A DNA stretch of 64,000 nucleotides from positions 62,001 through 126,000 of the IMG/VR virus record IMGVR_UViG_3300010938_000004, one strand, 5' to 3'. Below are positions 7,144 to 61,815 of this stretch, piece by piece (the stretch's first letter is position 1; each line of letters starts with the position of its first letter). The notes under the pieces were generated by a model. The model was not told the origin of the DNA. It saw only the letters and a list, made by a program, of their open reading frames with translations, and made no database searches. Position numbers and translations under genes: made by a program. This DNA is from a virus.

Positions 7144-7701
7144 CTAGTTGAACACGTCAGGCTTATTCGGCCTCACTCGTTCGAAGAGTTCCTTTTCAGA
7201 CATTTTTGCAGACTGAGCCAGTGCTTGTACCAAAAAGCCAAAAAACGACGCTGCCTCTTCCTTAGTGAAGTAGAGGCTATGACGATACTCCGCCTCTATG
7301 TTGTCTCCGATCAGCACCATCATCTTGAGCTTCGCACGGTTAGCCTCATGCCCCAGCTCTTCTACCTTGCGCGCTAACTCTGGGAAAGCGACCAAAATTG
7401 ACTGAGCGCACGGATTGGGGCTAACTTGCTCCATGTACTTCTCCTTCAACGCTTCGAAGAAGCCGATCATGGCCTGAAGAGGCGGGTTATTGGCCTTAAC
7501 TGCCGCGTCGATCATTGTTGCAATTGCAGGTTGCAAGAAATTCAGATCGGCAGTAGATGATACCATGGTTACTTTTTGATCTTCTGGCTTGCCAAATGCC
7601 AATGCCAAGTTAAACCCCATATCTTTGATCTGGCCCATGGTGTATTTAATCAGCTCTAAAAGAGCCCCCTGGCCGGGTGTTTGTTTTTCTTCTTTGCTCA
7701 T
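7144..7701 (-). CDS. Hypothetical protein coupled to the helicase
   Basis: 185 aa from the ATG at 7699-7701, which overlaps the helicase stop (ATGA) and has GGAGAGG just upstream. Mostly helical: LLELIKYTMGQIKDMGFNLALAF, LQPAIATMIDAAVKANNPPLQAMIGFFEALKEKYMEQ, and VEELGHEANRAKLKMMVLIGDNIEAEYRHSLYF. No known motif. It is the last gene of the leftward helicase operon and translationally coupled to it, so a partner role in the same process is a reasonable guess. Its stop lies 10 bp from the convergent fibre stop, with no obvious terminator hairpin between them. Confidence 0.65.
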   Translation of the reverse strand: MSKEEKQTPGQGALLELIKYTMGQIKDMGFNLALAFGKPEDQKVTMVSSTADLNFLQPAIATMIDAAVKANNPPLQAMIGFFEALKEKYMEQVSPNPCAQSILVAFPELARKVEELGHEANRAKLKMMVLIGDNIEAEYRHSLYFTKEEAASFFGFLVQALAQSAKMSEKELFERVRPNKPDVFN

Positions 7702-9209
7702 ACCACCTCTCCCATCTCGGAATAGATCTTGATCCGCTTTTCCAGCTGGTTTATCAGCAGTTGACACCCCAAGAACCTAAAGTCACATATGGTAGTAGTT
7801 GGCTTCCGGGCGACTCCGTTTTCGTCCTCGTCGTTCCTGAGCGCCCGGCCAACCAACTGCTTGACCGCGCCCCTTGCAACTCCGCCCTGCAGGTTAATCA
7901 ACAGATCAACCGGCACCAAGTCTGCTCCCTCGCCCAAAGTAGAGGTGCCGATCAACACTTTCAGCTCGCGACGATTGAATGACTTGCACAGATCCTCCGA
8001 CGTCGAAAGACCTCCGTACACATAGCCAGAGCCAGGGATCTTCTCGTTAAGTCTCTTCCCGTGGTGTAGGTGTTCTACCATTATGAGCACACTCTGACCT
8101 GCCGCTACCGCGTCTTGAGTTAACCCCACTACCATGTCGTCCAGTGCGAAGTTCCCAGACAGCCAATTACAGTGGGCCTCAAGCGAATCCGAGCCGTCGT
8201 ACCTGTTGACCTTGATGGAATGCTCGGTTTCTTGTTTTGTCCGCTTATTGGTCACTATTTTCTTGTATTCACCATACGTCTGGTCTACGTCCATCACCAT
8301 GAAGGTCGGGCGCGCCAGGTAGCCGTCCTCGATAGCCTGTTTCACCGAATACTCATACACCACATCACCAGCAGCTGCGAATACTGCCAACGTAGAGCCA
8401 TCCGCTCGCTCTGGCTCGGCGGTTAGGCCGAACTTGAAGGTGGCATTCTTGAGGCGCTCGTTAAATACCTCTTCAAATGTAGAGGCCGGCGCATGATGAA
8501 CCTCATCTCCAATAACCAAGTCTACCGAGGAAAACTCCTCCGCGCTTGCTGCATAGACACTCTGGTAGGTAGCGATGGTAACATACCCCTTACTCTTCTT
8601 TCCCCCGCCCCATACGCCCACGTTCTTCTTTCCCAAGGCCTGCTCGAACTTCTCGATGGACTGCTTAAGGATGGGCACTGATGGCACCAGGAATAACGCA
8701 CGGAGCCCCATCTTACGGATAAGCTCTATTGCAAGGAGCGTCTTGCCAACTCCAGTTGGGAGGCAAATCGTCCCTCTCCATGGGGCTATCGAAGCGCCCT
8801 TCTCCCACAGCTCGCGGTTGGTCACCATCAAGACATCGAATGCTTCTTGCTGGGGCTTTCGCAGGTACCTGGGCCGCACCCCATCCAAAATCCTGCGCCT
8901 CCCCTCCACCGCCTCATAGGGATGAAAGACCATCTGAACACTCTCAGCTGGCACCTTACTGAGCACGTGGCTCAGTAAGCCCACAGGGAAGGTCACTACT
9001 CCATCTTGCGTGCGGGCCATGTGCACGATCTTCTTGCTCCGTAGTTCCTCGATGCGCTTTTCCTTCCCTGGATAGTCCGGAGCTTTACTGGCGCGCATAA
9101 GCTGGTAACTGATGCTTTTATTGGTGTACGAACAGGCAGAAACTACCAGCGCCTGCTCCAGGGCATTAACGCGTGCCTCACAATACTCCTTGTGCACTAT
9201 GACCTTCAA
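7698..9209 (-). CDS. SF2 DNA helicase, UvsW/XPB-like
   Basis: 503 aa if translation begins at the TTG at 9207-9209, which has AAAGGG 8 nt upstream and gives a natural MKVIVHKEY start; a GTG at 9242 would overlap the preceding gene. Superfamily 2 motifs are clear: Q-like region RKPQQEAFDV, Walker A LPTGVGKT (about 150-157), Ia FLVPSVPILKQ, II GDEVHHAPA (about 235), III GLTAEPERADG, IV LIMVEHLHHGKRL, V GTSTLGEGADL, and VI QLVGRALRNDED. The nearest families are phage T4 UvsW and XPB/RAD25-type helicases, which remodel recombination intermediates, R-loops and stalled forks. It sits with four small genes in a compact leftward operon diverging from the candidate origin. Confidence 0.88.
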   Translation of the reverse strand: MKVIVHKEYCEARVNALEQALVVSACSYTNKSISYQLMRASKAPDYPGKEKRIEELRSKKIVHMARTQDGVVTFPVGLLSHVLSKVPAESVQMVFHPYEAVEGRRRILDGVRPRYLRKPQQEAFDVLMVTNRELWEKGASIAPWRGTICLPTGVGKTLLAIELIRKMGLRALFLVPSVPILKQSIEKFEQALGKKNVGVWGGGKKSKGYVTIATYQSVYAASAEEFSSVDLVIGDEVHHAPASTFEEVFNERLKNATFKFGLTAEPERADGSTLAVFAAAGDVVYEYSVKQAIEDGYLARPTFMVMDVDQTYGEYKKIVTNKRTKQETEHSIKVNRYDGSDSLEAHCNWLSGNFALDDMVVGLTQDAVAAGQSVLIMVEHLHHGKRLNEKIPGSGYVYGGLSTSEDLCKSFNRRELKVLIGTSTLGEGADLVPVDLLINLQGGVARGAVKQLVGRALRNDEDENGVARKPTTTICDFRFLGCQLLINQLEKRIKIYSEMGEVV

Positions 9210-9214
9210 TCTGA

Positions 9215-9529
9215 CTACCCTTTCTTGTAGTGGATGACACACAACATGGAGAGGCCTTTGCCTACTGGCCGCTTACACCCTTCATTAGAACAAGAGGCTC
9301 GACGCTTGGTTACTGTGATTGGTCTGTCAAACGAGGCGCAGTCTGCGCACATTCCGCCTGGTTTGAAAGCTTGCAGCTTCTTACAGCTTTCGCAGACGAC
9401 GTCTGCTGGCTTGAGACATCGCACTCTGACATTTCTTCGCCACGAGCTTGGGGCCCGGGGGCCCGAAAGTTTCTTTTGCTTGGGTGGAGAAAAATATCTC
9501 TCGTATATGCGCCTGATCGTCCTCGACAA
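9215..9529 (-). CDS. Small zinc-finger protein
   Basis: 104 aa from a TTG at 9527-9529, supported by a strong AGGAGG site 7-8 nt upstream. The N-terminal 37 residues are basic (MSRTIRRIYERYFSPP). The rest has two likely zinc sites: C-x-x-C (VVCESCKK) with C-x-x-C (GMCADCAS), then C-S-N-E-G-C with a C-x-x-H (MLCVIHYKKG). Multi-knuckle proteins like this often bind nucleic acid or RNA polymerase in phages; the role here is unknown. It ends 5 nt before the helicase TTG. Confidence 0.6.
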   Translation of the reverse strand: MSRTIRRIYERYFSPPKQKKLSGPRAPSSWRRNVRVRCLKPADVVCESCKKLQAFKPGGMCADCASFDRPITVTKRRASCSNEGCKRPVGKGLSMLCVIHYKKG

Positions 9530-9755: not shown

Positions 9756-10589
9756 TCAATCGTCCACGTCTTCAGCAATAGGGATAATCGGCTCATGGTC
9801 TTCAGTGGGACCTTGCTCCATTTGAGCCATGAGGCTGGACAAAAACTCTTCCTTCGCGACCTCCCTGAGAAAACCGTACGCAATTCGCCGCGAGGTCGGC
9901 ATGTTGTACACGGCATCAGGCAATAGTCTATCCCTAAGAAGAGACTTCTGCTGCTCAGACAGGGACAGCAATTTCTGGATGGGCACTGCTGCTGCAGCGA
10001 TCGGAGACAAACTCAGTATCCACTGTTCCACAGTGCCACCTATAACTTTTTGCACTTCATCTTTGGTAAGGGTAACCCCCACAGGTCGAGAGGGGGGTAC
10101 CATGGTCTCAAGGTGCTTCAACATAGCTTCAAGTTTGTGGAGCTTGGCATCGACATCCATGAGAACCCACTCTTTGGCGGCCTTCACCGCCAAGTCAATA
10201 TCTGAGAAGCGAGATGACAAAGACTCTCGAACGGCATCTGCCGCAGCTAATAGTGACTCGCAACAAGGAGTCCCATACTTGGAGTAGTCATGTGCCGGCA
10301 GAAGGTGTTGCGCGTTCAATGCCTCTTGCTCCAGCGCCAAGAGTTGCTCTTTATCGTCGCCAAGCTCAGACATCTTCGCTCGAAGAGATTGTAAAAGCAG
10401 AGCGTGATCTTGCGCTGCACTACGCAACAGTGCTTCTTTTTTGACGAGAGCGTCGTATTGACCGCGGATCCTGGCCTCAGCTGCTGATAAGCGATCTTCC
10501 ACTGCGCGCTCATCAAGTAGTTGCTCCATAGCGGCTAAGATCTTCTCAGCCCTCTGCTGTTTCCATTTGTCTCCGAACTTCTCTTCCAT
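9756..10589 (-). CDS. Coiled-coil hypothetical protein, first gene of the leftward operon
   Basis: 277 aa, start ATG at 10587-10589. The first 90 residues are strongly helical and heptad-like (KILAAMEQLLDERAVEDRLSAAEARIRGQYDALVKKEALL ... LRAKMSELGDDKEQLLALEQEAL). A second helical part (LAVKAAKEWVLMDVDAKLHKLEAMLKHLETM) is followed by a Pro/Val stretch and a Ser/Leu-rich end. The tail is acidic (EDHEPIIPIAEDVDD). No catalytic motif is visible. As the promoter-proximal gene of the helicase operon, it may be a structural or adaptor partner; that is inference. Confidence 0.65.
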   Translation of the reverse strand: MEEKFGDKWKQQRAEKILAAMEQLLDERAVEDRLSAAEARIRGQYDALVKKEALLRSAAQDHALLLQSLRAKMSELGDDKEQLLALEQEALNAQHLLPAHDYSKYGTPCCESLLAAADAVRESLSSRFSDIDLAVKAAKEWVLMDVDAKLHKLEAMLKHLETMVPPSRPVGVTLTKDEVQKVIGGTVEQWILSLSPIAAAAVPIQKLLSLSEQQKSLLRDRLLPDAVYNMPTSRRIAYGFLREVAKEEFLSSLMAQMEQGPTEDHEPIIPIAEDVDD

Positions 10590-10691: not shown

Positions 10692-11729
10692 ATGAAGGAC
10701 CTCGCTTTTGAAGAAGCCATTGGCAGCTTGGCCTGCCTCAAGGCGACACGCAAGCTGTCTAACTCCGACACTGACCCGGTGGCCGTATACCTGAGGCGTC
10801 AATACTCGCAGGCCGATAAATTTGGCAAAATCTCTGTGTATGCGGTCAGCGTAGTGAATATGATTTTGACACAACGTAGAGCTGTATTCACCATAGCCCG
10901 GCGCACGCTGGCGAGGAGCATTAAGGCGGATGAGAATCACTCCGCCGGCTTCGATAACAATGAGTACAAAACCCTACTGGCATTCCTCACCTCGGGACTG
11001 GGCCTCATCAAGATCGCCCACGCGGGCAACGGCAGGTCTCCCCACCTTTACGAAGTGGTCGACGAATCTCTCCTGTCCTTGATGCGCCTGTCTAAAGAGC
11101 AGGTAATTGAACAGAAAATATACGCCATGAAGCTCCTCCACCCTAACAGCTTCGATGAGCGTAGCGGTCTGAAAAGCGGTCTGAAAAGCGGTCTGAAAAG
11201 CGGTCTGAAAAGCGGTCTGAAAACTACAGACCGCAAAGCAGACCGCAAAGCAGACCGCAAAGCAGACCAGGAGAAGGAGAAGGAGGTGGAGCAGGAGAGA
11301 TCTATAAGATCTATTAATAGATCTAGTATTAGATCTACTTCTTCATCTGAAGATCATCTTCAACCTGAAGAACCAGATCTCTCTCATAAGAAAATCTTTT
11401 CTTGGGAAGAACTCCCGGAAGTAAAATTTTCAGTCAAGGCGGCAGCGACAAGTGCTCCAGCCAAATACAACCCAAGAGATCTTGGGCTCAGGGTTGGAAA
11501 ACTTTTTGACAAGCATCACGATGCTGTGTGGAAATTCATTAATTTAATTCCTAACTTACTGCCCTCTGGAAAATTCTCTCAACAACAAGCCCAGGCTCAG
11601 ATAGCTGGTCTTGTACATCTTGCCTCTAAGAAAAAGATCATAAAAAAACAAATACTTAAGGCTTCAATTAAAGTCCAAAAAATGACAAAGGTCAATGACC
11701 TAGAAGATGATATTCCTCCATTAATTTAA
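10692..11729 (+). CDS. Probable replication initiator protein (lambda O-like organisation)
   Basis: 345 aa from the ATG at 10692, 4 nt after AGGAG; an ATG 15 nt upstream has no such spacing. Residues 1-145 look like a winged-helix DNA-binding domain (FGKISVYAVSVVNMILTQRRAVFTIARRTLARSIK; NNEYKTLLAFLTSGLGLIKIAH; SPHLYEVV). Residues about 158-195 are encoded by tandem repeats giving five SGLK units then three DRKA units. A low-complexity Ser/Arg linker follows, then a C-terminal helical domain (PRDLGLRVGKLFDKHHDAVWKFINLIPNLLPSG ... IAGLVHLASKKKIIKKQILKA). DNA-binding N-terminus, in-gene iterons next to an A+T-rich stretch, and a separate C-terminal domain match the plan of lambda gene O. The function is inferred from architecture, not homology. 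Confidence 0.6.
   Translation: MKDLAFEEAIGSLACLKATRKLSNSDTDPVAVYLRRQYSQADKFGKISVYAVSVVNMILTQRRAVFTIARRTLARSIKADENHSAGFDNNEYKTLLAFLTSGLGLIKIAHAGNGRSPHLYEVVDESLLSLMRLSKEQVIEQKIYAMKLLHPNSFDERSGLKSGLKSGLKSGLKSGLKTTDRKADRKADRKADQEKEKEVEQERSIRSINRSSIRSTSSSEDHLQPEEPDLSHKKIFSWEELPEVKFSVKAAATSAPAKYNPRDLGLRVGKLFDKHHDAVWKFINLIPNLLPSGKFSQQQAQAQIAGLVHLASKKKIIKKQILKASIKVQKMTKVNDLEDDIPPLI
11164..11380 (+). other. Candidate replication origin: inverted iteron arrays plus GATC-rich flank
   Basis: GCGGTCTG occurs five times with exact 12-bp period (11164, 11176, 11188, 11200, 11212). After a 7-bp gap its reverse complement CAGACCGC occurs three times with the same period (11227, 11239, 11251), plus a partial fourth at 11263 (CAGACC only). 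About 30 bp further on lies an A+T-rich stretch with AGATCT palindromes at 11298, 11307, 11319, 11331 and 11375. An iteron block beside an easily melted region inside the initiator gene is the lambda ori layout. Origin function is inferred; the repeats are exact and directly visible. Confidence 0.6.
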
Positions 11730-11780
11730 CTATATACATAAACAGAACCCTGTCCCTGTGAGAGAGAGTACACTCCCTGC

Positions 11781-12404
11781 GTGAATGCCGAAGCAGCCCG
11801 TGCCATCCTGCAGCAAGACCTAGCTAGAATTTTTTCCGACGTAAAGCAACTTAACTCCGCAAGACAACAGGCAGAAAGAATCGCCGACGCTGTGCATCGC
11901 TACGCAGTTTCCTGCGAGGCTTTTGAGTTGGTAAAGTTTTCTGGCTTTACCGGACCAGGCAACGGGGGCATTGACCAACGCCCTCCGGGCCCCGGGATGA
12001 GCGCAACCGTGTCTTTGCTGGAGTCTGACTTGTGCCAGGTTTTCAACCATGGTGACGCGCTAGGAACCCACGAGGAGTTTGCGCGAAGATTCTCCGTGGC
12101 AGTAAACGCCCACTACCTTCGCGCATGGACGAAGACGATGGCTTCTAAGTCTAGCTCAAGCTACCGCACGACCATCGGCGGTCTGGACAAACGCGGAGGA
12201 GCGATCGGGTTAACCACAGCAAAACCTGCCTTTGTTGCGGCTTTGACCCAGGTATACTCTGGCGTTCAGTCGCTCGTAACCATCAGCGAAGTCGCTAGGC
12301 GTATCGCGGTCGCGATCAGTGAGTTCTTGTGCTCTGGCCGAGTAATTTTCATTGGCTCGGTATCTGGTTCGGTGGGTGTCTCCACCAGGAGTCAGATTTC
12401 GTGA
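11781..12404 (+). CDS. Hypothetical protein with three internal helical repeats
   Basis: 207 aa from a GTG. Three related segments can be aligned by eye: ILQQDLARIFSDVKQLNSARQQAERIADAVHRYAV (about 9-43), LLESDLCQVFNHGDALGTHEEFARRFSVAVNAHYL (about 79-113), and FVAALTQVYSGVQSLVTISEVARRIAVAISEFLCSG (about 150-185). Each has an L-x-x-hydrophobic start, an F/Y at the turn and an A-R-x-hydrophobic-A-x-A-hydrophobic helix. Short Gly/Pro- or Ser-rich linkers separate them. No family recognised. It overlaps the next small gene by GTGA, so it belongs to the block leading to groEL. Confidence 0.65.
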   Translation: MNAEAARAILQQDLARIFSDVKQLNSARQQAERIADAVHRYAVSCEAFELVKFSGFTGPGNGGIDQRPPGPGMSATVSLLESDLCQVFNHGDALGTHEEFARRFSVAVNAHYLRAWTKTMASKSSSSYRTTIGGLDKRGGAIGLTTAKPAFVAALTQVYSGVQSLVTISEVARRIAVAISEFLCSGRVIFIGSVSGSVGVSTRSQIS

Positions 12405-12565
12405 AGTCGCAAATGCAAGTCTCGATCTGGTTCATACATGGCGAAATTTCTGGCGCCAAGGCCCCGCCCTTCGTTTTGGATTTTAAAAACCATCCACGGC
12501 ATGGTTTTGAGCCGTCGTTGATTGGCGACCCATTAGCGCCGATGCCGCAAGGTGCGTCAATATGA
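12401..12565 (+). CDS. Small hypothetical protein
   Basis: 54 aa (MKSQMQVSIWFIHGEISG... ending PMPQGASI). Its GTG overlaps the previous stop (GTGA) and its stop overlaps the next start (ATGA), so both ends show translational coupling. No known motif; a Pro/His-containing middle (PPFVLDFKNHPRHGF) is the only feature. Confidence 0.55.
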   Translation: MKSQMQVSIWFIHGEISGAKAPPFVLDFKNHPRHGFEPSLIGDPLAPMPQGASI

Positions 12566-13173
12566 AGCGAGAACGATCCCACGTGTTGATCGCTCGGTTC
12601 CCATACGGGAAATTAGACGCTTTGCGTCGAGCGATCGAGCTGTATAAATCTTCTACAGAAGACCGAGCGCTGGGCTTTTTTGTGGTGCCCATCATGGTCG
12701 ACGATCCGGGCAGCATGCAGCAAGTGTTCGAGGCTTTCTCTAGTGAGGGATTGCGCATCGCAACCATCGCATGTTGGTATCGAAATCGACACATCGTCAC
12801 CGCCAAAGGCAACAAGCTCACGAACACCTGGGAGCCTGTGTTTGTCGTCTACAAGTCCGATGACTACGTCATGAACAGGGCCTCCGTGATGAAGATCAAA
12901 AAAGATCGCGAGTCGAAGTCAGACATGTTTGACGAGGACGAGTATCTTACGTGCCTAGGGGATCATTGGCCCATTCGCAACGATCCGCGGGACAGGCGTT
13001 TTCTTCCGGCGCAGCTAGTGCTAAACTGCGGGCAGTTGGCCGATTTGAAGCCGGGAGATCGGGTCTTAGATCCGATTGGCATGCCGACGATAAAAGAGAC
13101 GTGCCAGCAGTTGGGGTGGAAGTACGTAATGGACGCGTTGACAGCGACGCGTTTGCCGACGAGGAGAAAGTAA
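12562..13173 (+). CDS. DNA methyltransferase-like protein, probably inactive
   Basis: 203 aa. The C-terminal third reads like the SAM-binding end of a beta-class amino-methyltransferase: a region rich in W/R/D (DHWPIRNDPRDRRFLPAQLVLNC) followed by LKPGDRVLDPIGMPTIKETCQQLGWKYV. In active enzymes this is the DPF-x-G-S-G-T motif; here the glycines are replaced (DPIGMPT). The N-terminal half contains WEPVFVVYKSDDYV, like the motif before the target-recognition region, but no DPPY catalytic motif is present anywhere. I read it as a methyltransferase fold that has lost or changed its chemistry. It sits between two coupled small genes and groEL. Fold call moderate, function unknown. Confidence 0.5.
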   Translation: MKRERSHVLIARFPYGKLDALRRAIELYKSSTEDRALGFFVVPIMVDDPGSMQQVFEAFSSEGLRIATIACWYRNRHIVTAKGNKLTNTWEPVFVVYKSDDYVMNRASVMKIKKDRESKSDMFDEDEYLTCLGDHWPIRNDPRDRRFLPAQLVLNCGQLADLKPGDRVLDPIGMPTIKETCQQLGWKYVMDALTATRLPTRRK

Positions 13174-13174
13174 C

Positions 13175-14917
13175 ATGAGCAAGCACACTGGATACGACAA
13201 GAAAGAGCTGGCACGAGTAACTATGGCCGCACTTCAGGACATGGCGGGCGTCGTAAAGTCCACTCTCGGCCCGGCCGGGCGGACGGTCATTATTGAGTTG
13301 CCCAATGGGCACCCGCTTGTGACGAAAGATGGCGTGACGGTGGCTCGCCACTACGGCTCCGGTACTAGCCATGTGCAGGACGTGATCGCTCGCGTGGTTA
13401 GGGAAGCTTGCGAACGCACCGGCAACGAAGTGGGAGATGGCACTACGACTGCGATCGTTTTGACGGAAGCGATCGTGCGATTGGGTCAGGAATTTTTACA
13501 GGCGAATCCGAGCTACAGTCCCGAGAAGCTCTCGCGAGACCTGACCTCAGCCTACAAGGATTTTTTGCTCGTGATGCAGAACACCAACTTCGCTACGCAG
13601 GTGAAGGACAAGAAGATTGAGGATGCGAACGCCCTAATCAAATTTGTGGCCATGGTCAGCGCCAATCACGATGAGGCGATCGCTGACGCGGTGGTGCAGG
13701 CAGTGGAGCAAGTGGGCCTCGACGGTATGCTGCGCGCCGAGGAAGGAGTCGGTCACTCTACGTCGGTGACGATGGAGAAGGGTTTTCCTGTCCGCACTGG
13801 CTTTAGGGAGATTGGCGGCCCCGCGGAGGTGGCGTTCTTGAACAACCAGTCTCGCGGCGAGTGCATCCTGGAAGAATCCCTGATTGCTCTGTATGACGGA
13901 GACATCACCGATTCGGCTCAACTTATCCCGATCATGACGGCGTTGACGAGTCTGTACCAGGGCACAGGCTCACCCCCTCCTCCGGTGGTGTTCGTGGCGC
14001 ATTCTTTCACCCCGCCTGTGCTTAGGTACATGGCAGAAGCCTTCCGCAAGCACTTCTACGTGGTGCCGTACGTGACGCACATGCACATGCAGCAGCACGG
14101 CAAGCAGCTGTTTCTGCATGACCTGGCGGCGTACGTCGGCGGGAAGATTTTTGAGCCTCACGGCACTCGCTTGGAGCAAGCGAAGCCTGAAGATCTAGGC
14201 GGCGCAGACCGCGTGGTCATCGGCCAGAACAACGCCGCCTTTTTCGTGGAAACTCCCGATCCTGCTCGACTTCAAGCTCGCGTCGACGATTTGAAGGCAC
14301 AGCTTGCGACCGAGAATGAGCACGCGAAGAGCCAGATCCGGTTCCGGATTGGCCAGCTCTCTGGTGGCATTGCCGTCATTCTGGCTGGCGGAGCCACCTC
14401 AGCTGAGGCTAAGGAGCGTCAGGCTCGTCTTGTGGACGCGATCTCCGCGGTGAGGGCGGCCATTGATTCTGGGATTGTTCCAGGCGGAGGGGCCACCTTC
14501 CTGTGGTTGGCACAGCAGATCCGCAACCTGTACGCCCCAGAAGCGCCTATGCTTCCCCATCATCAGATTCTGTTCGAGGCTCTTCGAGTTCCTTTCCGCC
14601 AGGTCCTGCAGAACGCGGGCTTCGATGCGGACAGTATCGAGCAGACGGTGTTGGAAAAGACGGCAAAATCCGGCGTGCAGCACGTCTTTAATGTGCTTAC
14701 CGAGCAAGTGGGCCCGTGGAATGAGGTGGGCATCGCTGATCCCGCGAAGGTGATTACGTCGGCATTGGGTAATGCGCTCTCGGTTGCCAAGACTCTCATC
14801 ACTTTGGGCGGCTTTATTGTGCGACGTAACGCGGAAGAAGAAGAGCGCACCCGTGCTATGAGCGAGGGGCTTATCCGGGCTATCAATTACCAGGAGCAGG
14901 GAGGCGACCTTGCTTAA
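13175..14917 (+). CDS. groEL: GroEL-type chaperonin
   Basis: 580 aa, slightly longer than bacterial GroEL (about 545). Signature segments are in order: ATP-site STLGPAGRTVIIE (about 29-41), TKDGVTVARH (50-59), GNEVGDGTTTAIVL (about 83-96, with the catalytic-loop Asp), and VPGGGATFLWLA near 430. Divergence is concentrated in the apical domain (about 190-370), which binds substrate and co-chaperone. No groES is recognisable nearby. Phage GroELs have been reported to work on phage proteins, in some cases without GroES. The intact ATPase motifs suggest an active chaperonin, perhaps for capsid or polymerase folding (inference). The stop overlaps the next TTG start. Confidence 0.93.
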   Translation: MSKHTGYDKKELARVTMAALQDMAGVVKSTLGPAGRTVIIELPNGHPLVTKDGVTVARHYGSGTSHVQDVIARVVREACERTGNEVGDGTTTAIVLTEAIVRLGQEFLQANPSYSPEKLSRDLTSAYKDFLLVMQNTNFATQVKDKKIEDANALIKFVAMVSANHDEAIADAVVQAVEQVGLDGMLRAEEGVGHSTSVTMEKGFPVRTGFREIGGPAEVAFLNNQSRGECILEESLIALYDGDITDSAQLIPIMTALTSLYQGTGSPPPPVVFVAHSFTPPVLRYMAEAFRKHFYVVPYVTHMHMQQHGKQLFLHDLAAYVGGKIFEPHGTRLEQAKPEDLGGADRVVIGQNNAAFFVETPDPARLQARVDDLKAQLATENEHAKSQIRFRIGQLSGGIAVILAGGATSAEAKERQARLVDAISAVRAAIDSGIVPGGGATFLWLAQQIRNLYAPEAPMLPHHQILFEALRVPFRQVLQNAGFDADSIEQTVLEKTAKSGVQHVFNVLTEQVGPWNEVGIADPAKVITSALGNALSVAKTLITLGGFIVRRNAEEEERTRAMSEGLIRAINYQEQGGDLA

Positions 14918-19383: not shown

Positions 19384-22300
19384 ATGAAGTTCCCCACTAG
19401 CCTTCAGTTGTGCCCTCTTCATGCGCACACAGTTTATTCCGTGCTTGATGGCGCCAGCACGATCGACCAGTACCTCACGTGGTGTAAGGACAATGGAGCC
19501 CCAGCACTAGGCATCACGGACCACGGGTGGATGATTGGATTGTTGGAATTGTACAGCAAGTCCAAGGAAGCCGGGGTTGTTCCACTCCCCGGTTGTGAGT
19601 TCTACGTCGTGCCCGATAAGGACCATCCTTTTCAGGCCGATATCTACGACTACTGTCACGTGACTGTCTGGGCTTACAACGAGCAAGGCTACAAGAATCT
19701 CATGAAGCTAGGCTCAATCTCTTGGCAGCAAGATGAGCTATTCGGCATTTCGCGCAAGGATAAGAAGAAGATCTGGACGCCCAAAGACAGGGTGGTATCG
19801 AAATTCGGCGTGGCCAAGCCGCGCATTACCTTTGATGAGTTGGCTCAGTACTCCGCGGGTCTGGTGGGCGCCTCTGGCTGCCTCATCGGGCCGCTAGCTA
19901 AGGCTACTCTCAATCGAGAGCGCGAGGGTTTTGATCTGTATGTGAACAAGCTCAGGGCCATCTTTAAGGATCGCCTGTACCTAGAGATAATGCCCCATTG
20001 CGTGACTCACAATTGGAATAAGAAGACCAACTCGTTCGAAGAGATCGAGTGTACTGACCTGTCACCTGATGGAGATCTTCAGCGTACGGCGAATTTGGCT
20101 GTGTTGGAGGCTGCGAAGCGCGAGAGGCTGCCATTGCTACTCACGGTAGACAGTCATTTCGTGAAGCCCGAACAGAAGGGGCTGCAGGACGCGATTCTGT
20201 CGCAGGGAGAGGAGGGCGGCTTTCGTTTTCACAACTCGTACCACATGGTCACGACTAATGAGGCGTGGCAGTTTTGGCGCGAGCGGTACGGCGAGGACGA
20301 GGACAACCGCAAGATGTTCCAGGAGGCTGTAGAAAATAATCACGCGATCGCCGACCTGGCTAAGGACATCAAGATTCAAACTTCTTACCATCAGGTTCAA
20401 CCGGAGATCCCGCAAGAGATAACTGCGGCTGTGTCTAGCCCCAAGGAGCAGCAGTATACCTTGGTCTACAACCTGATTAACAAGCACGGTCGCATGCCGT
20501 GGGGAAATCAGGTCTATGAACAACGGCTTCAGTCGGAACTTGAGATCATCGTGGAGAATGGGAAGCTAAACTTTTTGCCGTACTTCTTGTTCAAGGAGAA
20601 GTGGGGGTCGTGGGCTAGAGAGATGGGCTTGTTTCATGGCATCGGCCGCGGCTCTGCCGGCGGCAGTCTTCTGTCGTACTTGCTGAAGATCACCCATATC
20701 GATCCGATTAAGTGGCAGTTGCCCTTCGAGCGTTTTTTGTCTCGCGCCCGCATCGAACGCGGTAAGTATCCTGACATCGACTCTGACTGGTCCGATCGCG
20801 ATCTTCTGCTAGAAAAGCTGAAGGAGGAGTACGGAGATAGGTACGCTCAGATTAGCACCCACGGCACCTTGAAGATCAAGATGGCCATTAAGGATGCCCT
20901 TCGTTTCTTCGAGGGCCAAGTTTCTAAGGAAGATGAGAAGTTCATCCACAAGATCCCCAATACGCCCATGGGTGTCATGGATCAAAACTTCCTCCTGGGC
21001 TATGTAGACAAGGACAAGAACGTCCATGAAGGTTTAGTTGACACCATGCCGGAGCTGAAGGCGTGGCTTGAAGCTCGTCCTGCAGTTTTCGACATGATGC
21101 GCCAGCTTTTGGGCATACCACGCAGCGTTGGTCGCCACGCGTCGGGCATTGTCGTGTCGGATGTGCCGGTGAGCGAGGTGGTGCCCACTTGTTACATCAG
21201 CGGCAGTTTGTGCACTCAGTACACCGCGAACGATGTCGAGAAGTCGGGACTCATCAAGTATGACGAGTTGACGGTCACCTTCTATGCCTATGTGGCACGA
21301 TGCATCTGGCTGATTCACAAGGATGCAGGTTGGAAGACCTGGTCAGAGCAGGTCACCGTGAACGGACAGGAATTCACCGTTTTGCGATCTGAGCGCCCCT
21401 TGACCATTTTGCCGATTCGTCAGCCGGACGGCTCTCTGTTGGAACTTGATGTGTACAATCTGCCTGAAGAGAAAGACGTTTTTGACATGATCAGTGCTGG
21501 CGACACTGCTTCGCTTTTCCAGATCAGTAGCAACCTGCTGACGGATTTTTGTAGGCGTACTGCCCCGCGCTCTGTGGCGGACATCAGCGCCTTGGTGGCT
21601 CTTGTTCGACCCGGCCCGCTTGACGCTGAAGTGGAGCCTGGGCTGACCATGGCCGAGGCTTACGTGAAGCGCCGGGCTGGCGAGATCCCGGTCAAGTATC
21701 CCCATCCAGACATGGAGCAGCTCACTAGTGAGACTTATGGAATTATTCTCTATCAGGAGCAGCTGCAAAAAGCCTTCAGTATTTTGGCTGATTATTCTCC
21801 CGAGGATGCTGACTACTTCCGCGAGGTGCTCGCCAAGAAGAAGGCTCAGGAGGTGCAGGGGCACTTCCCCAAGATCCGAGAAAAATTGGCGGCCCGTGGA
21901 TGGAACGATGTACAGGTTCAGACGTTTATCGACGCTTGCACTGCCGCATCGCGTTACTCTTTTAACTGCATAGATGGCGATGAGCTGCTTGTGACAGACG
22001 AGGGTCTGGTGCCCATGCGTACTGTGGCCAGTGCGCCAGAGAAGTTTAGGGTGGCTACCTTAAACGAGTCCCACGCAGTGTCCTATGTGACACCGAGCCA
22101 CGGGGCCTTTATGGGGGAGAAGGAAGTCTTTGAAATTGTTTTAGAAAACGGGAATAAGATTCAGGCCACCGAAGACCATAGATTTTATACTAATCATGGC
22201 TGGAAGACGCTTAAAGAAGTGCTCTCCAATAATTATGAGATATTGATTGTCGATGTCGAAGAAGTAATGGAAGCGCCAGTAGTTGCAAGAGCTGATGGCA

Positions 22301-23460
22301 CATTAGTGAAAGTCACCTCCTTTAAGAGCTTGGGCGTCAAGAGAGTCTACGATCTGGAGATTCCTGGCACTCACAACTTTATCCTGCAGTCAGGCGCTGT
22401 GGCCCATAATTGTGCCCATAGCGCAGCGTACGGCTCTGCTGCCTATATCGGCGCGTACCTGAAGAAGCGCTTTCCGGTTGAGTGGTGGGCTGCGGTTCTT
22501 TCCGCTTCTGACGTGTCTGATATCAAAAAGAAGGGCTACTCTCACGCGGCCAAGGACCACATGCGCCTGCCGCACGTGAATGGACCCATCCACACCTTTG
22601 AGGTAGTGGAACAGGACGGCGTCAAGACCATCGATGCCCCTCTTGCCGCAGTTCTTGGCTTTGGCCAGGCGTCCCGCGCTGACTTGCAAAAGATCCGCGA
22701 GAAGGGTCCTATTTCTTCTATCTTGGATTTTTTCTGCAGGACTAGGGGGACCCGGATCTCTTCTGGAGTGTTCAAGGACTTGGTGCTGTCCGGCTGCTTC
22801 GACCTACTGCATCCTGACATGGAGAAGAAGGACATGCTGGAGTTGTACTTCTGGTTGCAGCGCGTGTCTGGACTTAAGGCGGGCAGAGACAAGATGGGGG
22901 AAGAGCTTTTAGAGGCAGCATTAGCTCGGATGGAGTCCCATCCTGAAGAGATTCAAGATGCTAACTTAGACCCAGGCATCAGCGACCTAGTATGGCTGAA
23001 CACCGAGAAGATTCGCAGATTGTCGCTCTATGACTTTCATCCGCTGGTGGCCCTCAAGGAGGTGCTCAGCACCAAGGGCTTCATTTACACCCACAAGGAT
23101 GTTCGATTCCGGATGCGCCAGGAAGAGATTTTGGTGATGGAGAATTTGTCTGGAGCGGCTGATTACCACTCTGCGGTTGGGTGGGTTGGCATTTTGACCG
23201 AGGTAAAGGGGTGGACTTATCAAAGCAAGAAGAAGGGCACGCAGGAGACTGCGTGTAAGTTGCAGGTGGACTGCGGTGGGGAAGTTCTAGAGTGCGTAAT
23301 GTGGCCTGATACTTATCAGAGATACAAGCCGATGTTGATTAAGATGAGCAAGACTGACATAGTGTTTGTGGTGGGCAGCGTGAAAGCGTCGGCGTTTAGT
23401 CGTTCTGGGTATTCCATGAACGTAGATTTTTTCCGCGGAGTGAGGACCTTGAGCATATGA
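19384..23460 (+). CDS. dnaE: DNA polymerase III alpha subunit with mini-intein
   Basis: 1358 aa precursor; about 1210 aa after splicing, close to bacterial DnaE (about 1160). The PHP domain begins at once (CPLHAHTVYSVLDG, ITDHGWM). The polymerase palm is marked by GRGSAGGSLLSYLLKITHIDP near residue 421 and PDIDSDWSDRD near 463-473 (catalytic Asp pair), then RHASGIVVSD and the finger segment up to YSFN. An intein interrupts residues 862-1009; the exteins rejoin as SFN/CAHSAAYGSAAYIGAYLKKRFPVEWW, the standard DnaE sequence. The C-terminal OB-type region follows (ILTEVKGWTYQSKKKGTQETACKLQV). It is a bacterial-type C-family replicase, unusual in phages, which mostly use A- or B-family enzymes. 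The next gene overlaps by ATGA. Confidence 0.95.
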   Translation: MKFPTSLQLCPLHAHTVYSVLDGASTIDQYLTWCKDNGAPALGITDHGWMIGLLELYSKSKEAGVVPLPGCEFYVVPDKDHPFQADIYDYCHVTVWAYNEQGYKNLMKLGSISWQQDELFGISRKDKKKIWTPKDRVVSKFGVAKPRITFDELAQYSAGLVGASGCLIGPLAKATLNREREGFDLYVNKLRAIFKDRLYLEIMPHCVTHNWNKKTNSFEEIECTDLSPDGDLQRTANLAVLEAAKRERLPLLLTVDSHFVKPEQKGLQDAILSQGEEGGFRFHNSYHMVTTNEAWQFWRERYGEDEDNRKMFQEAVENNHAIADLAKDIKIQTSYHQVQPEIPQEITAAVSSPKEQQYTLVYNLINKHGRMPWGNQVYEQRLQSELEIIVENGKLNFLPYFLFKEKWGSWAREMGLFHGIGRGSAGGSLLSYLLKITHIDPIKWQLPFERFLSRARIERGKYPDIDSDWSDRDLLLEKLKEEYGDRYAQISTHGTLKIKMAIKDALRFFEGQVSKEDEKFIHKIPNTPMGVMDQNFLLGYVDKDKNVHEGLVDTMPELKAWLEARPAVFDMMRQLLGIPRSVGRHASGIVVSDVPVSEVVPTCYISGSLCTQYTANDVEKSGLIKYDELTVTFYAYVARCIWLIHKDAGWKTWSEQVTVNGQEFTVLRSERPLTILPIRQPDGSLLELDVYNLPEEKDVFDMISAGDTASLFQISSNLLTDFCRRTAPRSVADISALVALVRPGPLDAEVEPGLTMAEAYVKRRAGEIPVKYPHPDMEQLTSETYGIILYQEQLQKAFSILADYSPEDADYFREVLAKKKAQEVQGHFPKIREKLAARGWNDVQVQTFIDACTAASRYSFNCIDGDELLVTDEGLVPMRTVASAPEKFRVATLNESHAVSYVTPSHGAFMGEKEVFEIVLENGNKIQATEDHRFYTNHGWKTLKEVLSNNYEILIVDVEEVMEAPVVARADGTLVKVTSFKSLGVKRVYDLEIPGTHNFILQSGAVAHNCAHSAAYGSAAYIGAYLKKRFPVEWWAAVLSASDVSDIKKKGYSHAAKDHMRLPHVNGPIHTFEVVEQDGVKTIDAPLAAVLGFGQASRADLQKIREKGPISSILDFFCRTRGTRISSGVFKDLVLSGCFDLLHPDMEKKDMLELYFWLQRVSGLKAGRDKMGEELLEAALARMESHPEEIQDANLDPGISDLVWLNTEKIRRLSLYDFHPLVALKEVLSTKGFIYTHKDVRFRMRQEEILVMENLSGAADYHSAVGWVGILTEVKGWTYQSKKKGTQETACKLQVDCGGEVLECVMWPDTYQRYKPMLIKMSKTDIVFVVGSVKASAFSRSGYSMNVDFFRGVRTLSI
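21967..22410 (+). other. Mini-intein in DnaE (148 aa)
   Basis: It starts at Cys (TGC 21967-21969) after SFN and ends at His-Asn (22405-22410), followed by Cys of the C-extein. Hint-domain blocks: A (CIDGDELLVTDEGLVPM), B with T-x-x-H (IQATEDHRFY), and F/G (VKRVYDLEIPGTHNFILQSGAVAHN). At 148 aa it lacks a homing endonuclease. The insertion point is three residues downstream of the cyanobacterial split DnaE intein site (Y/CFNKSH). All four splicing residues (Cys1, block B His, penultimate His, last Asn) and the +1 Cys are present, so it should splice. Confidence 0.93.
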
Positions 23461-23885: not shown

Positions 23886-24622
23886 TGCTGAGATCAGATA
23901 CACAGGTGATTATACTCCTGGGCAATCGTCAGGCAGTCAGGCGCCTCACAGCAGCCGCTCCTTCGGAGGTGAAGGTAGTAGATGCAGATCAGTGGTTCTT
24001 GTCGGCCGTTAGCAAAGCTACTGGGCTTTCGATGGAAAGCCTGGGGTTGTACTCGGACAAGGATATGCAGGGCGAGATGTCCCTAGACAAAGGTACATTG
24101 GGCGTGTTCGCCGCATACATGAATTTGTCTAGGGTTTCTACGAACAACATCCTCAACAAGACTTCTGTTCAGGACGGGGTTAAGCATTTGCAAAACGTAA
24201 TGAGCAAGTACAGCCCACACAAGGACGGGTGGTTGCTCCAGAATGCCGTAGACATGCTCTACTATTCTCAGCCGGTTAAGCGAGTGCTGGTCTCAATCGA
24301 GGGGCTGGACCTCAAGGAGTTCATGCAGACGCTTGCCCACTACAATTTGGCTTCGCGCGCGCGTTACGTAGTGCTGATTCCGCGCGCTGCGTCAGGAGAG
24401 AAGGTCCTTCAGTATGAAGGAGATCTGCCGCCTTCATATAGCGAGATTGTCATCGAGGAAGGAACGTCATTGACAGACGTGGTGGATGATGTCTTTAATA
24501 GCAAGTCTAAGGCGCACAGCAAGCCAAAGCAGAAGCGGCCGAGTCCTAAGCGAAGACAGGCCAAGAAGCAGGTAGAGCCAGAGACGCCGAAGGAAGAAAT
24601 AAAGGAGAACACAGATGAGTGA
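23885..24622 (+). CDS. Hypothetical protein with basic C-terminal tail
   Basis: 245 aa. Residues 1-190 are mixed alpha/beta (TQVIILLGNRQAVRRLTA, VKRVLVSIEGLDLKEFMQTLAHYNLASRARYVVLIPRA). The IILLGNRQAVRR start resembles a degenerate P-loop but has no GK[ST]. The last 50 residues are Lys/Arg/Pro-rich (KSKAHSKPKQKRPSPKRRQAKKQ) and then acidic, a likely flexible nucleic-acid-binding tail. The layout recalls the delta subunit of a clamp loader, an impression only. The stop overlaps the SSB start. Confidence 0.5.
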   Translation: MLRSDTQVIILLGNRQAVRRLTAAAPSEVKVVDADQWFLSAVSKATGLSMESLGLYSDKDMQGEMSLDKGTLGVFAAYMNLSRVSTNNILNKTSVQDGVKHLQNVMSKYSPHKDGWLLQNAVDMLYYSQPVKRVLVSIEGLDLKEFMQTLAHYNLASRARYVVLIPRAASGEKVLQYEGDLPPSYSEIVIEEGTSLTDVVDDVFNSKSKAHSKPKQKRPSPKRRQAKKQVEPETPKEEIKENTDE

Positions 24623-25712
24623 GATGCTAGAAGGTCTTTCGTTTGATCTCGATTCGTTCAACAGCAAGAGCAAGTACTTCAAGTTCCCGGAGGGGACGAC
24701 TCTGATTCGTTTCCTTCCTCCTTACGGGGACAAGGCGAATCGCCGTCCGTTCAAGCAGTACAAGGTCCACTTCGGCTTTACGGATGAGCGCGGCAAGCAG
24801 CGCCCGGTCTACTGTCCGTCGAATGACGGCTTTGACTGCTCGCTCTGTGAGAAGGTTAAGCAGCATCAGGATACGGCTGCGGCCATGTACAAGACCAAGA
24901 AAGCCAATGGTGGCAACTTGGCTCCGGATGAGCAATGCGCCCTAGACGAGGCCAACAACTTCGTGAAGAAGTACCGCGCGGACAATAAGTTCTACTACAA
25001 TGCGATCCTGGCCAATGGTGATATCGTGGTCGCCCAAGTGCCTTGGGCTGTCCAGGGGGGTTCCCGCCGCAGCGACGACCAGAAAGACGAGGCGCCGCCC
25101 ACCTCCCTTCAGGCCTTGATGCTTCAGGCGTGGAACGACTACAAGATCGACCCGCTCAGCATCACTCGCGGTCTGTGGTTTGTGGTTACCCGGACCGGCA
25201 AGATGTTGGATACCAAGTACTCGGTATCCTTCCAGGAGAGTTCAACCGTGGAGAGTGACGGCACCATCGTGAAGCGCATTAAGTTCACCAACCTGGTGGA
25301 CGAGATGAAGGACAAGAATCCTCAAGGCATCAAGGATGCGATCGCCCAGCTGAAGGGCGAGACCAAGGCGGGCCCGCTGGTGGATGTGCATGATCTATAC
25401 GATCCGCTCACCCCGGCCCAGTTCGAGGCGATCTTGCAGGGGGCGCCGGTTCCTTCTCGTGGGGCGCAGCAAGAGGTTGAAGAGCAGGCTCCTGGGAAGC
25501 CGTCCTTTACTTTGGGAGATGGGCCTGCGCCGACCCCTGCGCCGACCCCTGCGCCGACCCCTGCGCCGACCCCTGCGCCTGCCCCTGCGCCTGCCCCTGC
25601 GCCTGCCCCTGCGCCGACCCCTGTCGCCGCGCCGACTGTCACGGCGAGCGACAAGATCGCTGAGGCTCGGGCCAAGGCCGCGAAGTTTCGAGACTCTCAG
25701 AAGAAGGCTTAA
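24615..25712 (+). CDS. Single-stranded DNA-binding protein, gp32-like
   Basis: 365 aa, ATG 7 nt after AAAGGAG. The core resembles the T4 gp32 OB-fold: FNSKSKYFKFPEGTTLIRFLPPYGDK (about 15-40), then a zinc site H52 ... C67 ... C75-x-x-C78 (FGFTDERGKQRPVYCPSNDGFDCSLCEKV), FVKKYRADNKFYYNAI, and later LWFVVTRTGKMLDTKYSVSF. The C-terminus has a Pro-Ala-Thr repeat linker (about 305-335) built from 12-bp DNA repeats, then a charged helix (KIAEARAKAAKFRDSQKKA). The usual very acidic tip is missing; the tail is basic. It should coat single strands at the phage fork and load RecA. Confidence 0.8.
   Translation: MSEMLEGLSFDLDSFNSKSKYFKFPEGTTLIRFLPPYGDKANRRPFKQYKVHFGFTDERGKQRPVYCPSNDGFDCSLCEKVKQHQDTAAAMYKTKKANGGNLAPDEQCALDEANNFVKKYRADNKFYYNAILANGDIVVAQVPWAVQGGSRRSDDQKDEAPPTSLQALMLQAWNDYKIDPLSITRGLWFVVTRTGKMLDTKYSVSFQESSTVESDGTIVKRIKFTNLVDEMKDKNPQGIKDAIAQLKGETKAGPLVDVHDLYDPLTPAQFEAILQGAPVPSRGAQQEVEEQAPGKPSFTLGDGPAPTPAPTPAPTPAPTPAPAPAPAPAPAPAPTPVAAPTVTASDKIAEARAKAAKFRDSQKKA
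25530..25624 (+). repeat. 12-bp tandem repeats coding a Pro-Ala-Thr linker
   Basis: GCGCCGACCCCT occurs four times, then GCGCCTGCCCCT three times, then the first unit again, within the SSB gene. They encode (APTP) and (APAP) units forming a flexible linker before the C-terminal helix. Such arrays expand and contract by replication slippage, so linker length is likely to vary between relatives. Confidence 0.85.
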
Positions 25713-26287: not shown

Positions 26288-26400
26288 TACATCGCTAAGT
26301 GATACATCGCTAAGTGATACATCGCTAAGTGATACATCGCTAAGTGATACATCGCTAAGTGATACATCGCTAAGTGATACATCGCTAAGTGATACATCGC
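26281..26400 (+). repeat. Eight perfect copies of a 15-bp repeat before recA
   Basis: The unit TAAGTGATACATCGC is repeated eight times without a mismatch from 26281 to 26400, and a degenerate continuation (CAAATCGGCG) leads into the recA ribosome site. The first unit contains the stop of the preceding gene (TGA 26285-26287). Because 15 is divisible by 3, some frames stay open (L-S-D-T-S on the + strand) while others hit TAA or TGA in every unit. Such an array could be a protein-binding array, a second origin, a recombination hot spot, or a translation buffer before recA. Confidence 0.95.
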
Positions 26401-26425
26401 CAAATCGGCGATGGGGAGTAAAGTA

Positions 26426-55022: not shown

Positions 55023-55029
55023 CTTGCCC

Positions 55030-57615
55030 GTGCCAGAAAATGTCTACCTTTTCGGACAGGAGTTCCAGCGCGGAGTCCTGTCTCTGATGCTGCGAGATGA
55101 AGCCTTCTTCTCTAAGTGTGTAACCTACCTTAGGCCTCAGTGCTTTTCGGCTCCTCGCGATTGGTTTTTCTCGCAGATGCAAGACTTGTACGTGTCGTAC
55201 GGCCGCCGGCTGACCGCAAGTAGTATGCAGGTGGTCCTGGGGACGGTCCAGGGTAAAGAGCTGCCGGCCTACACGGCTGAGCTTGAGTCCATCCTCAAGG
55301 CCGATCCGGTGAAGGAGATGATCGTAGATAAGGTGTCTTCCTTTGTGAAGGCGTCTTACCTGCGAGAGGTGGCCCTGGACATCCGGGCGCACCACAACAA
55401 CAACCGCATTGACGAGGGCGTCAGGGCAGCACTAGAAGCTCTGAAGCGGGCCAATGAGGTCGTTTTCGGAGACAGCGGGACCACTAAGTTCGGCGACGCC
55501 GAGGCGTTTGCCGACCGTATGGCGGCCCAGGCGGCTCAGGCCGTCCCGACAGGGATTTGGCCTATAGATGTGGCACTCGGCGGAGGTATGAAACCCCAGA
55601 CCTGGACGACTTTCATTGGGGCATCTAACGCCGGAAAATGTCTATCGGCTGACACTTTAATTCATACAGAGTTGGGACTGATTCCGATTTCAGATGTTCG
55701 TTCGCTTAAACCCAGCAGGGTCGTTGGTATTGACGGCAAAAAGCAGATCCTGGCCTTTTATGAAAATGGTACTAAGCCGCTATATCGAATTACTTTTGAA
55801 TGCGGATTATCGATCGATTCCAGCTTGGATCATATTCATGGCATCGCCACATCTAAAGGCCTTGAAGAGATCAAAACTGCGGATCTGAAGCCTGGCATGT
55901 TTGGAGTTTTACCTGCCGGTACGTGGTTGGGCGATAAGCCAGTGCCTGAAAACATTGCTTGGTTGCTGGGCTTTACGCTGGGCGACGGGTCTTATTCCAG
56001 GTGCCCCCGAGGACTTCGTAATTTAAACTGGACGGCAGAGATTGGCAGTCCAGTTTACGATAAATTGCGGACTACACTGAGCGCGCTCGGGCTGGCTAAG
56101 CCGCGAGAGCATACCCGCGGCCGGACCAAGGCGGTATGGGGAACCTCTGCCATAGCCGATCAGTTGGAAGCTTATGGTTTGAGGGCGGGCACCAAGCAAG
56201 ACAAGTTTATTTTGAACATCATGAGTTGGGATCGCTCAGCGGCCAAGGCATACATTGCTGGCCTCTTAGATGCTGATGGCACCGTTAGTAAGCGCGGGCA
56301 GATCGTCCTAACTCTTAATAATTATCAAGTGCTCAAGCAGCTTCAGCAGGTATTTTTCCGTATGGGTTATTTTTCCAATCTTCGCGCCTACAAGAAGAAG
56401 GTCGCCTTAAAGAACAAGACCATCAATAACTATCAAGTGTGGAGCTTATTTTTTTCTGCGGCATCCAGCTTGAAAGCCCGACAAGAGTTGGGCCTTCAGG
56501 ATAAGTGGAAAGATGGACGGCTATACGCTTCCGCCCCCAGGGGAGGGCGTCAAGTGGTGGTGACTGAGGAGATCCGCAGGGCCCTATTGTCTCATGGGAT
56601 TGGATATTTTAGTGGATCAAAGGCGCAGACCGTGCTGTCTTCCACCCTAGACCGCCTGCGTATCCCCTACGACGATCGATATTGGCCAGTAAAGATCGTC
56701 TCGATAGAGCCATCTGGAGAGGGCCCGACCTATGATCTTTCGGTCGATGGAGATCATTTGTTTGTGGCCAATGGGCTACTAACCCATAACAGTATGCTGT
56801 CCAGCAACTTTGCCTACTTTGCGGCCATGGCCGGCAAGAAGACCTTGGTAACTATCCACGAAGATGAAGAGGAAACCAAAGCCAGGTTTATCTCTCGCTT
56901 TAGCGGTGTCCCAACCCGGAAGTATCTGATGGGCGCTCAGTTTTGGACCAAGCAGGAGCGCGATGCCATCATGCATGCTGACCAGGTGTTGTCCAAGCAT
57001 GTGGAGTTGCGCTTCATGTCGGGCGAGGAGAACACGATTGAAAATGTGAAGGAGTTCGTTCGTCGCCATCATGCGGCACGCGGTATCGATCTTTACGTGT
57101 GCGACTATGGTCAGTGTTTGTATTCTAACCGAGTGAAGAGCATTGAGAATTCCTATAAAATCCAAGAGATCGTCTACTGGGAGCTGAAGCAGCTTTGCAA
57201 TGAGCTAAACATCGCAGGCGTGGGTGGAGCACAATCGAATCGTGAGGCAGCAAAGAAGAACCGCGCTGGCGGCGTGTGGTTAAAGCCAGAGGACGTGTCT
57301 GACTCTTACTCTGTGGTTAGAAAGAGCAGCAACATCATCACTCTGAACCGTTCTGAACAGGCAGAGCAGCGCGATGAGGTCTACTTCCATCTGTGTAAGG
57401 CCCGCGGTGGGGTCAAGGGTATCACCGTGTGCTGTGAGAGCGACTACTCTCGCGCCATCACCCATATGGCTGACGAGGTGGACGAACACGGAGCATTGTT
57501 GGTCCAGCGCCAAAGGATAGTTGACCGCGGCGGCCTAAAGAAGGAAGATTTGCCAGTTCAGATCGGAGTGGGGAAAAGCGAAAGCGAAGGAGATGAGGGT
57601 GGGACTCAGGAATAG
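55030..57615 (+). CDS. dnaB: Replicative DNA helicase, DnaB-like, with intein
   Basis: 861 aa precursor (477 aa spliced, the usual DnaB length) from a GTG; a TTG two codons earlier is the alternative. The N-terminal collar (QEFQRGVLSLMLRDEAFFSKCVTYLRPQCFSAPRDWFFSQMQDLY) matches DnaB. The RecA-like domain starts TGIWPIDVALGGGMKPQTWTTFIGASNAGK; Walker A is completed after the intein by Ser. Downstream are LVTIHEDEEETKARFISRF, Walker B-type IDLYVCDYGQCL, GVGGAQSNREAAKKNRAGGVWLKPEDVSDSYSVVRKSSNIITLNR and the arginine-finger region. It unwinds the fork ahead of the phage Pol III. Confidence 0.9.
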   Translation: MPENVYLFGQEFQRGVLSLMLRDEAFFSKCVTYLRPQCFSAPRDWFFSQMQDLYVSYGRRLTASSMQVVLGTVQGKELPAYTAELESILKADPVKEMIVDKVSSFVKASYLREVALDIRAHHNNNRIDEGVRAALEALKRANEVVFGDSGTTKFGDAEAFADRMAAQAAQAVPTGIWPIDVALGGGMKPQTWTTFIGASNAGKCLSADTLIHTELGLIPISDVRSLKPSRVVGIDGKKQILAFYENGTKPLYRITFECGLSIDSSLDHIHGIATSKGLEEIKTADLKPGMFGVLPAGTWLGDKPVPENIAWLLGFTLGDGSYSRCPRGLRNLNWTAEIGSPVYDKLRTTLSALGLAKPREHTRGRTKAVWGTSAIADQLEAYGLRAGTKQDKFILNIMSWDRSAAKAYIAGLLDADGTVSKRGQIVLTLNNYQVLKQLQQVFFRMGYFSNLRAYKKKVALKNKTINNYQVWSLFFSAASSLKARQELGLQDKWKDGRLYASAPRGGRQVVVTEEIRRALLSHGIGYFSGSKAQTVLSSTLDRLRIPYDDRYWPVKIVSIEPSGEGPTYDLSVDGDHLFVANGLLTHNSMLSSNFAYFAAMAGKKTLVTIHEDEEETKARFISRFSGVPTRKYLMGAQFWTKQERDAIMHADQVLSKHVELRFMSGEENTIENVKEFVRRHHAARGIDLYVCDYGQCLYSNRVKSIENSYKIQEIVYWELKQLCNELNIAGVGGAQSNREAAKKNRAGGVWLKPEDVSDSYSVVRKSSNIITLNRSEQAEQRDEVYFHLCKARGGVKGITVCCESDYSRAITHMADEVDEHGALLVQRQRIVDRGGLKKEDLPVQIGVGKSESEGDEGGTQE
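55639..56790 (+). other. Full intein with LAGLIDADG endonuclease in DnaB Walker A (384 aa)
   Basis: Cys (TGT 55639-55641) follows GASNAGK, and the intein ends in His-Asn (56785-56790) before Ser-Met-Leu. It therefore splits the Walker A motif between Lys and Ser, so the helicase is inactive until splicing. Blocks: A (CLSADTLIHTELGLIPISDV), B (SIDSSLDHIHGIATS), two LAGLIDADG-type motifs (WLLGFTLGDGS and YIAGLLDADGT), and F/G (GPTYDLSVDGDHLFVANGLLTHN). Both acidic residues of the endonuclease motifs are present, so homing activity is possible. Confidence 0.95.
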
Positions 57616-61795: not shown

Positions 61796-61815
61796 TAGAA
61801 ACCAAAGGAGATGAC

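Follow-up and report, generated by a model that had tools for sequence, protein, structure and literature searches.

In lambda and the Stx phages (O/ori), the central part of the initiator gene carries iterons and then an A+T-rich tract (PMC7466680); each lambda iteron is an inverted repeat to which a dimer of O binds (PMC5043065). The gp38/oriL region of SPP1 holds direct repeats within the initiator gene together with an A+T-rich unwinding element, and is used for theta replication with a DnaB-type helicase (PMC6316719). In iteron plasmids of the RK2 type and at E. coli oriC, initiator sites stand beside melting A+T-rich repeats of about 13 bp (PMC5043065). Here we describe a phage locus whose layout, by analogy, would work like lambda ori and SPP1 oriL, and whose protein falls in neither family by the tests run. 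As in lambda, iterons and then an A+T-rich tract lie in the middle of a candidate initiator gene, and as at oriL, repeats within such a gene are accompanied by an A+T-rich element. Lambda has four iterons and the Stx phages six, whereas the eight short words of this locus recur at a 12-bp step, form two opposed blocks and, unlike lambda’s inverted-repeat iterons, are not palindromic. SPP1 is a 44-kb siphovirus with a host replicase and a second origin, oriR, whereas ours is a large myophage that encodes a DnaE-like polymerase of its own and has a two-orientation array and a protein unrelated to gp38. Plasmid iterons are as a rule direct repeats in helical phase, in contrast to the opposed blocks seen here and their 12-bp step, which is out of phase with the DNA helix.

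The stretch of DNA analyzed, hereafter the window, comprises 64,000 nucleotides (bases 62001-126000) of a 132,520-bp IMG/VR virus record; coordinates are those of the window unless the whole contig is named. Profile searches point to a large contractile-tailed phage with a tail sheath, DnaE-like polymerase, DnaB-like helicase, SPO1/Mx1-type capsid and GroEL. Of the named phages it was compared with, Myxococcus phage Mx1 comes closest in gene order, and the helicase, GroEL and polymerase of the two are 29-35% identical. One repeat unit, CACCAAGGCACTTTAGCGAAAGACACAGACCCT..., is found at both contig ends (L002 1-200 and the end of L008). The assembly is therefore probably circular, with its ends joined in a repetitive gene, and the copy number is uncertain. 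The DnaE-like polymerase (ORF 19384-23460) carries a mini-intein of about 148 aa at 21967-22410 (Pfam Intein_splicing, E 3e-12), which the Mx1 polymerase lacks.

The features of the locus are collected in Table 1. All eight full iterons, spanning 11164-11258 inside ORF 10692-11729, sit where the initial annotation had described five direct and three inverted copies at exact 12-bp steps, and a ninth, partial copy (CAGACC only) starts at 11263. A search of the window for GCGGTCTGNNNNGCGGTCTG with at most three mismatches gave nine matches, seven of them in the array, against an expected 1.1 and a largest count of 4 in shuffled sequence. Elsewhere in the 132.5-kb contig the 8-mer occurs in single copies only. 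Exact GGTCTGAAAAGCGGTCTG was sought elsewhere and gave no match. GCGGTCTGNNNNGCGGTCTG matches at least 119 IMG/VR stretches; the 80 of these loci that were read are isolated pairs or coding repeats, essentially in one orientation, and none resembles the array.

Table 1. Features of the candidate origin and its surroundings, in window coordinates.
Feature	Position	Strand	Details
Direct iteron block, 5 x GCGGTCTG, 12-bp steps	11164..11219	+	starts 11164, 11176, 11188, 11200, 11212
Inverted iteron block, 3 x exact reverse complement of GCGGTCTG, 12-bp steps	11227..11268 including partial copy	-	starts 11227, 11239, 11251
Purine-rich tract	11259..11300	+	between iterons and A+T stretch
Putative DNA unwinding element	11298..11345	.	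AGATCT at 11298, 11307, 11319, 11331
Second A+T-rich stretch	11620..11740	.	3' end of candidate initiator gene; holds the contig’s least stable 100-bp window (11640)
Candidate initiator gene, 345 aa, ORFan	10692..11729	+	ORF + Shine-Dalgarno; central linker encoded by iterons and A+T stretch
SF2 helicase	7698..9242	-	left neighbor of origin, conserved in relatives
GroEL	13175..14917	+	right neighbor of origin, conserved in relatives
DnaB-like helicase with primase-like similarity	55024..57615	+	likely helicase to be loaded

Tandem arrays are in themselves nothing unusual in the contig (25524-25629, 26281-26400 and 51073-51427), but each of these keeps to one orientation, and the array at 11164 is the contig’s only two-orientation cluster with more than four copies. 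At 25524-25629, a 12-bp coding tandem repeat encodes a Pro/Ala-rich linker near the end of an SSB-like ORF (24615-25712). Eight exact copies of the 15-bp TAAGTGATACATCGC at 26281-26400 are mostly intergenic, between ORF 25712-26287 and a UvsX-like ORF (26411-27529), and show no skew turn. The array at 51073-51427 is a 15-bp coding repeat of 24 copies (Pfam Pentapeptide_2) in ORF 50728-51765 on the minus strand, which also carries a DUF7666 domain. The 16-bp GTATTTTCCGTTTAGA occurs in 2.2 exact tandem copies at 61763-61797, ahead of ORF 61816-62574.

The iterons lie in one reading frame, in which the direct block is translated as SGLK and the inverted block as DRKA. Such an array could be a coding minisatellite, a disordered protein linker expanded by slippage with no role at the DNA level, and both the low complexity of the encoded linker and the 12-15-bp coding arrays in linkers elsewhere in the contig (25524-25629 and 51073-51427) fit this account. 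Slippage, however, does not make inverted copies and cannot turn an SGLK block into a DRKA block, so the unit the two blocks share is the DNA duplex. Moreover, arrays at the same address in relatives also lie outside coding sequence, and the skew and stability minima described below coincide with this one. We find the minisatellite account hardly credible.

The A+T-rich stretch reported beside the iterons is real. In a nearest-neighbor stability scan of the whole contig, duplex stability over 40 and over 60 bp is lowest in the windows that start at 11300, some 30-40 bp beyond the final iteron. The last three of the four AGATCT units there are themselves spaced at 12-bp steps, to be set against the ~13-bp A+T-rich repeats of RK2-type plasmids and oriC. 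As a lead only, these units may resemble the oriC 13-mers. The purine-rich tract was given little weight because similar tracts are found elsewhere in the window.

GC skew, which serves as a proxy for the start of replication, also turns at this locus, as the initial annotation had predicted for the vicinity of 11.2 kb. Over the whole contig, the raw cumulative curve bottoms out at 73.5 kb (window 11.5 kb) and the detrended curve at 74.0 kb, with the array at 73.2 kb. Because the locus is also a point of transcription divergence, third codon positions were examined separately for the genes of each strand. To the left of the array top-strand GC3 skew is negative and to the right positive, for plus- and minus-strand genes alike; the cumulative GC3 curve turns between gene centers at 74.1 and 74.9 kb of the contig, within about 1.5 kb of the array, returns nearly to zero over the contig, and reaches its maximum close to contig position 11.9 kb, on almost the opposite side. 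This pattern is the one left by a bidirectional origin, not by transcription.

These results bear on whether the array instead serves another DNA transaction at a divergent transcription switch, as an autoregulatory operator, a packaging start or a partition site, with the skew arising from transcription. The locus does lie between divergent genes, and the weak fold matches of the encoded protein (below) are to PadR/MarR-type regulators. Yet GC3 skew turns for genes of both strands and so does not follow transcription, the array lies 470 bp within the gene, away from the promoter, and the adjoining duplex is the least stable of the contig. This reading is very improbable.

ORF 10692-11729 has a strong Shine-Dalgarno sequence, agaaggagtactATG (the longest ORF runs from 10677), and diverges, as described initially, from a leftward helicase operon represented by ORF 9756-10589(-) and the SF2 helicase. 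The likeness to lambda O/ori drawn at the outset stands for the order of iterons and A+T tract inside a gene, but not for what follows that gene: neither a helicase loader (P) nor a DnaB match was found in the next genes (11781-12404 and 12562-13173), and the phage’s DnaB-like gene lies 43 kb from the array. The protein was described as not recognizably O, and this is borne out; unlike lambda O, it matches no O family. Searches against Pfam, PHROGs and NCBIfam returned no family and no O or replication-protein profile. Nor were homologues found by tblastn against phages and plasmids, in IMG/VR scans, GTDB genomes or the records of relatives, by phmmer on the ORFs of relatives’ loci, or in PDB sequences. 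A profile of the relatives’ HTH-like proteins scores the protein no better than about 6.5% of shuffles, and hhalign against those proteins gave nothing.

Single-sequence AF2 gave no reliable model of the whole protein (pLDDT 44). With an alignment of relatives, residues 1-157 were modeled as helix-helix-helix-strand-strand, with pLDDT of 76-79 over the last helix and the strands and 57 overall, and in Foldseek the nearest solved structures to this N-terminal model were winged-helix regulators of the PadR/MarR type (best E 0.47, PadR). The model weakly suggests an N-terminal winged-helix DNA-binding fold, and weakly because the alignment itself held HTH-like proteins.

An origin at this site could still use iterons bound by another protein, of the phage or the host, with the ORF merely carrying the array in its linker. 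The protein’s want of a family or a confident DNA-binding domain suits such an arrangement, as does the position of the array outside the small HTH-like gene in some relatives. Against it, the array is inside the gene at the conserved address in this phage, G003 and G004, and adjoins such an HTH-like gene in the other array-bearing relatives, and the lambda and SPP1 arrays are bound by the products of the very genes in which they lie (PMC7466680, PMC6316719). We regard a separate binder as unlikely and the gene’s own product as the probable initiator.

As the protein has no detectable homologue, the locus was traced through its neighboring genes. Polymerase alignment yielded ten IMG/VR contigs and GroEL alignment 80 loci; the proteins that this phage shares with Mx1 and the uncultured relatives are about 25-38% identical. 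A helicase of this type sits upstream of GroEL, directed away from it, in G002, G003, G004, G005, G007, Mx1, L107, L109/L110, L112, L113, L114, L116, L118, L119, L120, L126 and L134. The closest polymerase relative, G001, has no GroEL match and no comparable locus.

In most relatives the gap between helicase and GroEL contains a small HTH-like gene (so called by eye, with weak Pfam support that is best for Mx1), an unstable A+T-rich segment, and an array of iterons, unrelated in sequence, that may lie within the small gene or beyond it. In G002, four GACTGACGAAATCGTACATC-type repeats follow the HTH-like gene and precede a DnaB-like gene. G003 has TGATCAAAACAATCATG-type repeats and G004 GGTGCAT/GCACC dyads within the HTH-like gene, each adjoining DnaB; the G002 DnaB is confirmed by Pfam, and those of G003 and G004 were judged by resemblance to it. 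Ahead of the HTH-like gene lie GAACGGCACTTAGCAG-type repeats in G005 and AAAGTGAA/TTCACTTT dyads in G007. Mx1 (OR576727.2) shares the gene neighborhood and small HTH-like gene and carries ATTAACGTCCCAT in direct and inverted copies beside its genome’s least stable 40- and 60-bp duplex, with a strand-corrected skew turn nearby; it differs in its repeat word, in having only 3-4 copies and in the position of the array upstream of the HTH gene. The Mx1 record has no origin annotation in the helicase/GroEL region, and the literature searched contained no paper on the Mx1 genome or on phage GroEL beside an origin.

Four further unrelated arrays occupy the gap in L116, L118, L126 and L134. The first is a 57-bp tandem unit with paired AAGTAAACAT words in at least three copies (L116 5479-5690), ahead of a small HTH-like gene and GroEL; at L118 5336-5510, about six GGACA..TGTCC dyads recur at roughly 21-bp steps; both are further candidate origins. 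The array in L113 is weak, the gap in L109/L110 is too short to judge, and no clear array was seen in the gaps of L107, L112, L114, L119 and L120. The comparison with homologues proposed initially thus succeeds at the level of the locus: relatives carry a different array in the same gap, inside or outside a small gene, and what is kept is therefore a DNA array. Opposed blocks had also been singled out as a distinctive variant. Mixed orientation is not unique, as G004, G005, G007, Mx1 and L126 mix orientations or use dyads, but no other locus examined separates so cleanly into two opposed blocks with a 12-bp step.

Seven genomes (this phage, G002, G003, G004, G005, G007 and Mx1) were each tested against their own background in intervals of equal length. 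The array score of the gap was equalled or beaten by 2.5-12.6% of intervals per genome, and its 40-bp duplex minimum by 0.1-5% of intervals in six of the seven, the exception being G007; in G003 the duplex minimum and the array are 1.4 kb apart. For this phage, G002, G007 and Mx1, the turn in strand-corrected GC3 skew falls no more than about 4 kb from the array; in G003, G004 and G005 the two do not coincide. Raw GC skew in the relatives is uninformative except in G007. Combined P values, all somewhat optimistic because the strand-corrected skew followed sight of the raw curve, the arrays had initially been spotted by eye and the genomes share ancestry, were 3e-4 for the array score (Fisher; 5e-4 without this phage), 1.5e-6 for 40-bp instability (Fisher; 5e-6 without this phage) and ~2e-4 for the skew turn in four of seven.

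The array, the extreme duplex instability beside it, the strand-independent skew turn with its near-opposite maximum and the equivalent locus in distant relatives were all computed from sequence. Since anatomy, duplex stability, skew and comparative position agree, the array and A+T stretch are very probably a phage replication origin, in line with the original proposal of an origin within an initiator gene. More specifically, we propose, with a probability of roughly 0.8, that 11164-11345 is a bidirectional (theta) origin in its own initiator gene, whose product binds it, melts it and helps to load the helicase. The product of 10692-11729 would assemble in an ordered complex on the GCGGTCTG sites, spaced at 12 bp; the neighboring AGATCT stretch, rich in A+T, would be melted; the phage DnaB-like helicase would be loaded there with the protein’s help; and two forks would depart in opposite directions. 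Weighing against this proposal are the protein, which has no recognizable family and a weakly supported DNA-binding fold, the skew that falls off the array in G003-G005, the five L loci without a clear array, the lack of a loader or DnaB gene beside the array, and a 12-bp step off helical phase.

This locus stands apart in several ways: the iterons step by 12 bp; their non-palindromic words form two opposed blocks; the region presumed to melt carries AGATCT, repeated every 12 bp; and the genomic address is fixed while the iteron word turns over completely between relatives. We tentatively suggest that in the GroEL-carrying, Mx1-like large phages the origin keeps to a fixed gene neighborhood while initiator and iteron word are replaced wholesale, the array moving in and out of the initiator gene, as a form of cassette turnover. 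To our knowledge, replication origins have not been established for most large lytic phages that encode their own polymerase, and this locus provides a precise, testable one in such a phage. It also supplies a search rule, namely the least stable duplex beside short repeats between an SF2 helicase and a divergent GroEL, which yields candidates in relatives without detectable similarity in initiator or iteron, and with them a natural series for how initiator and sites change together.
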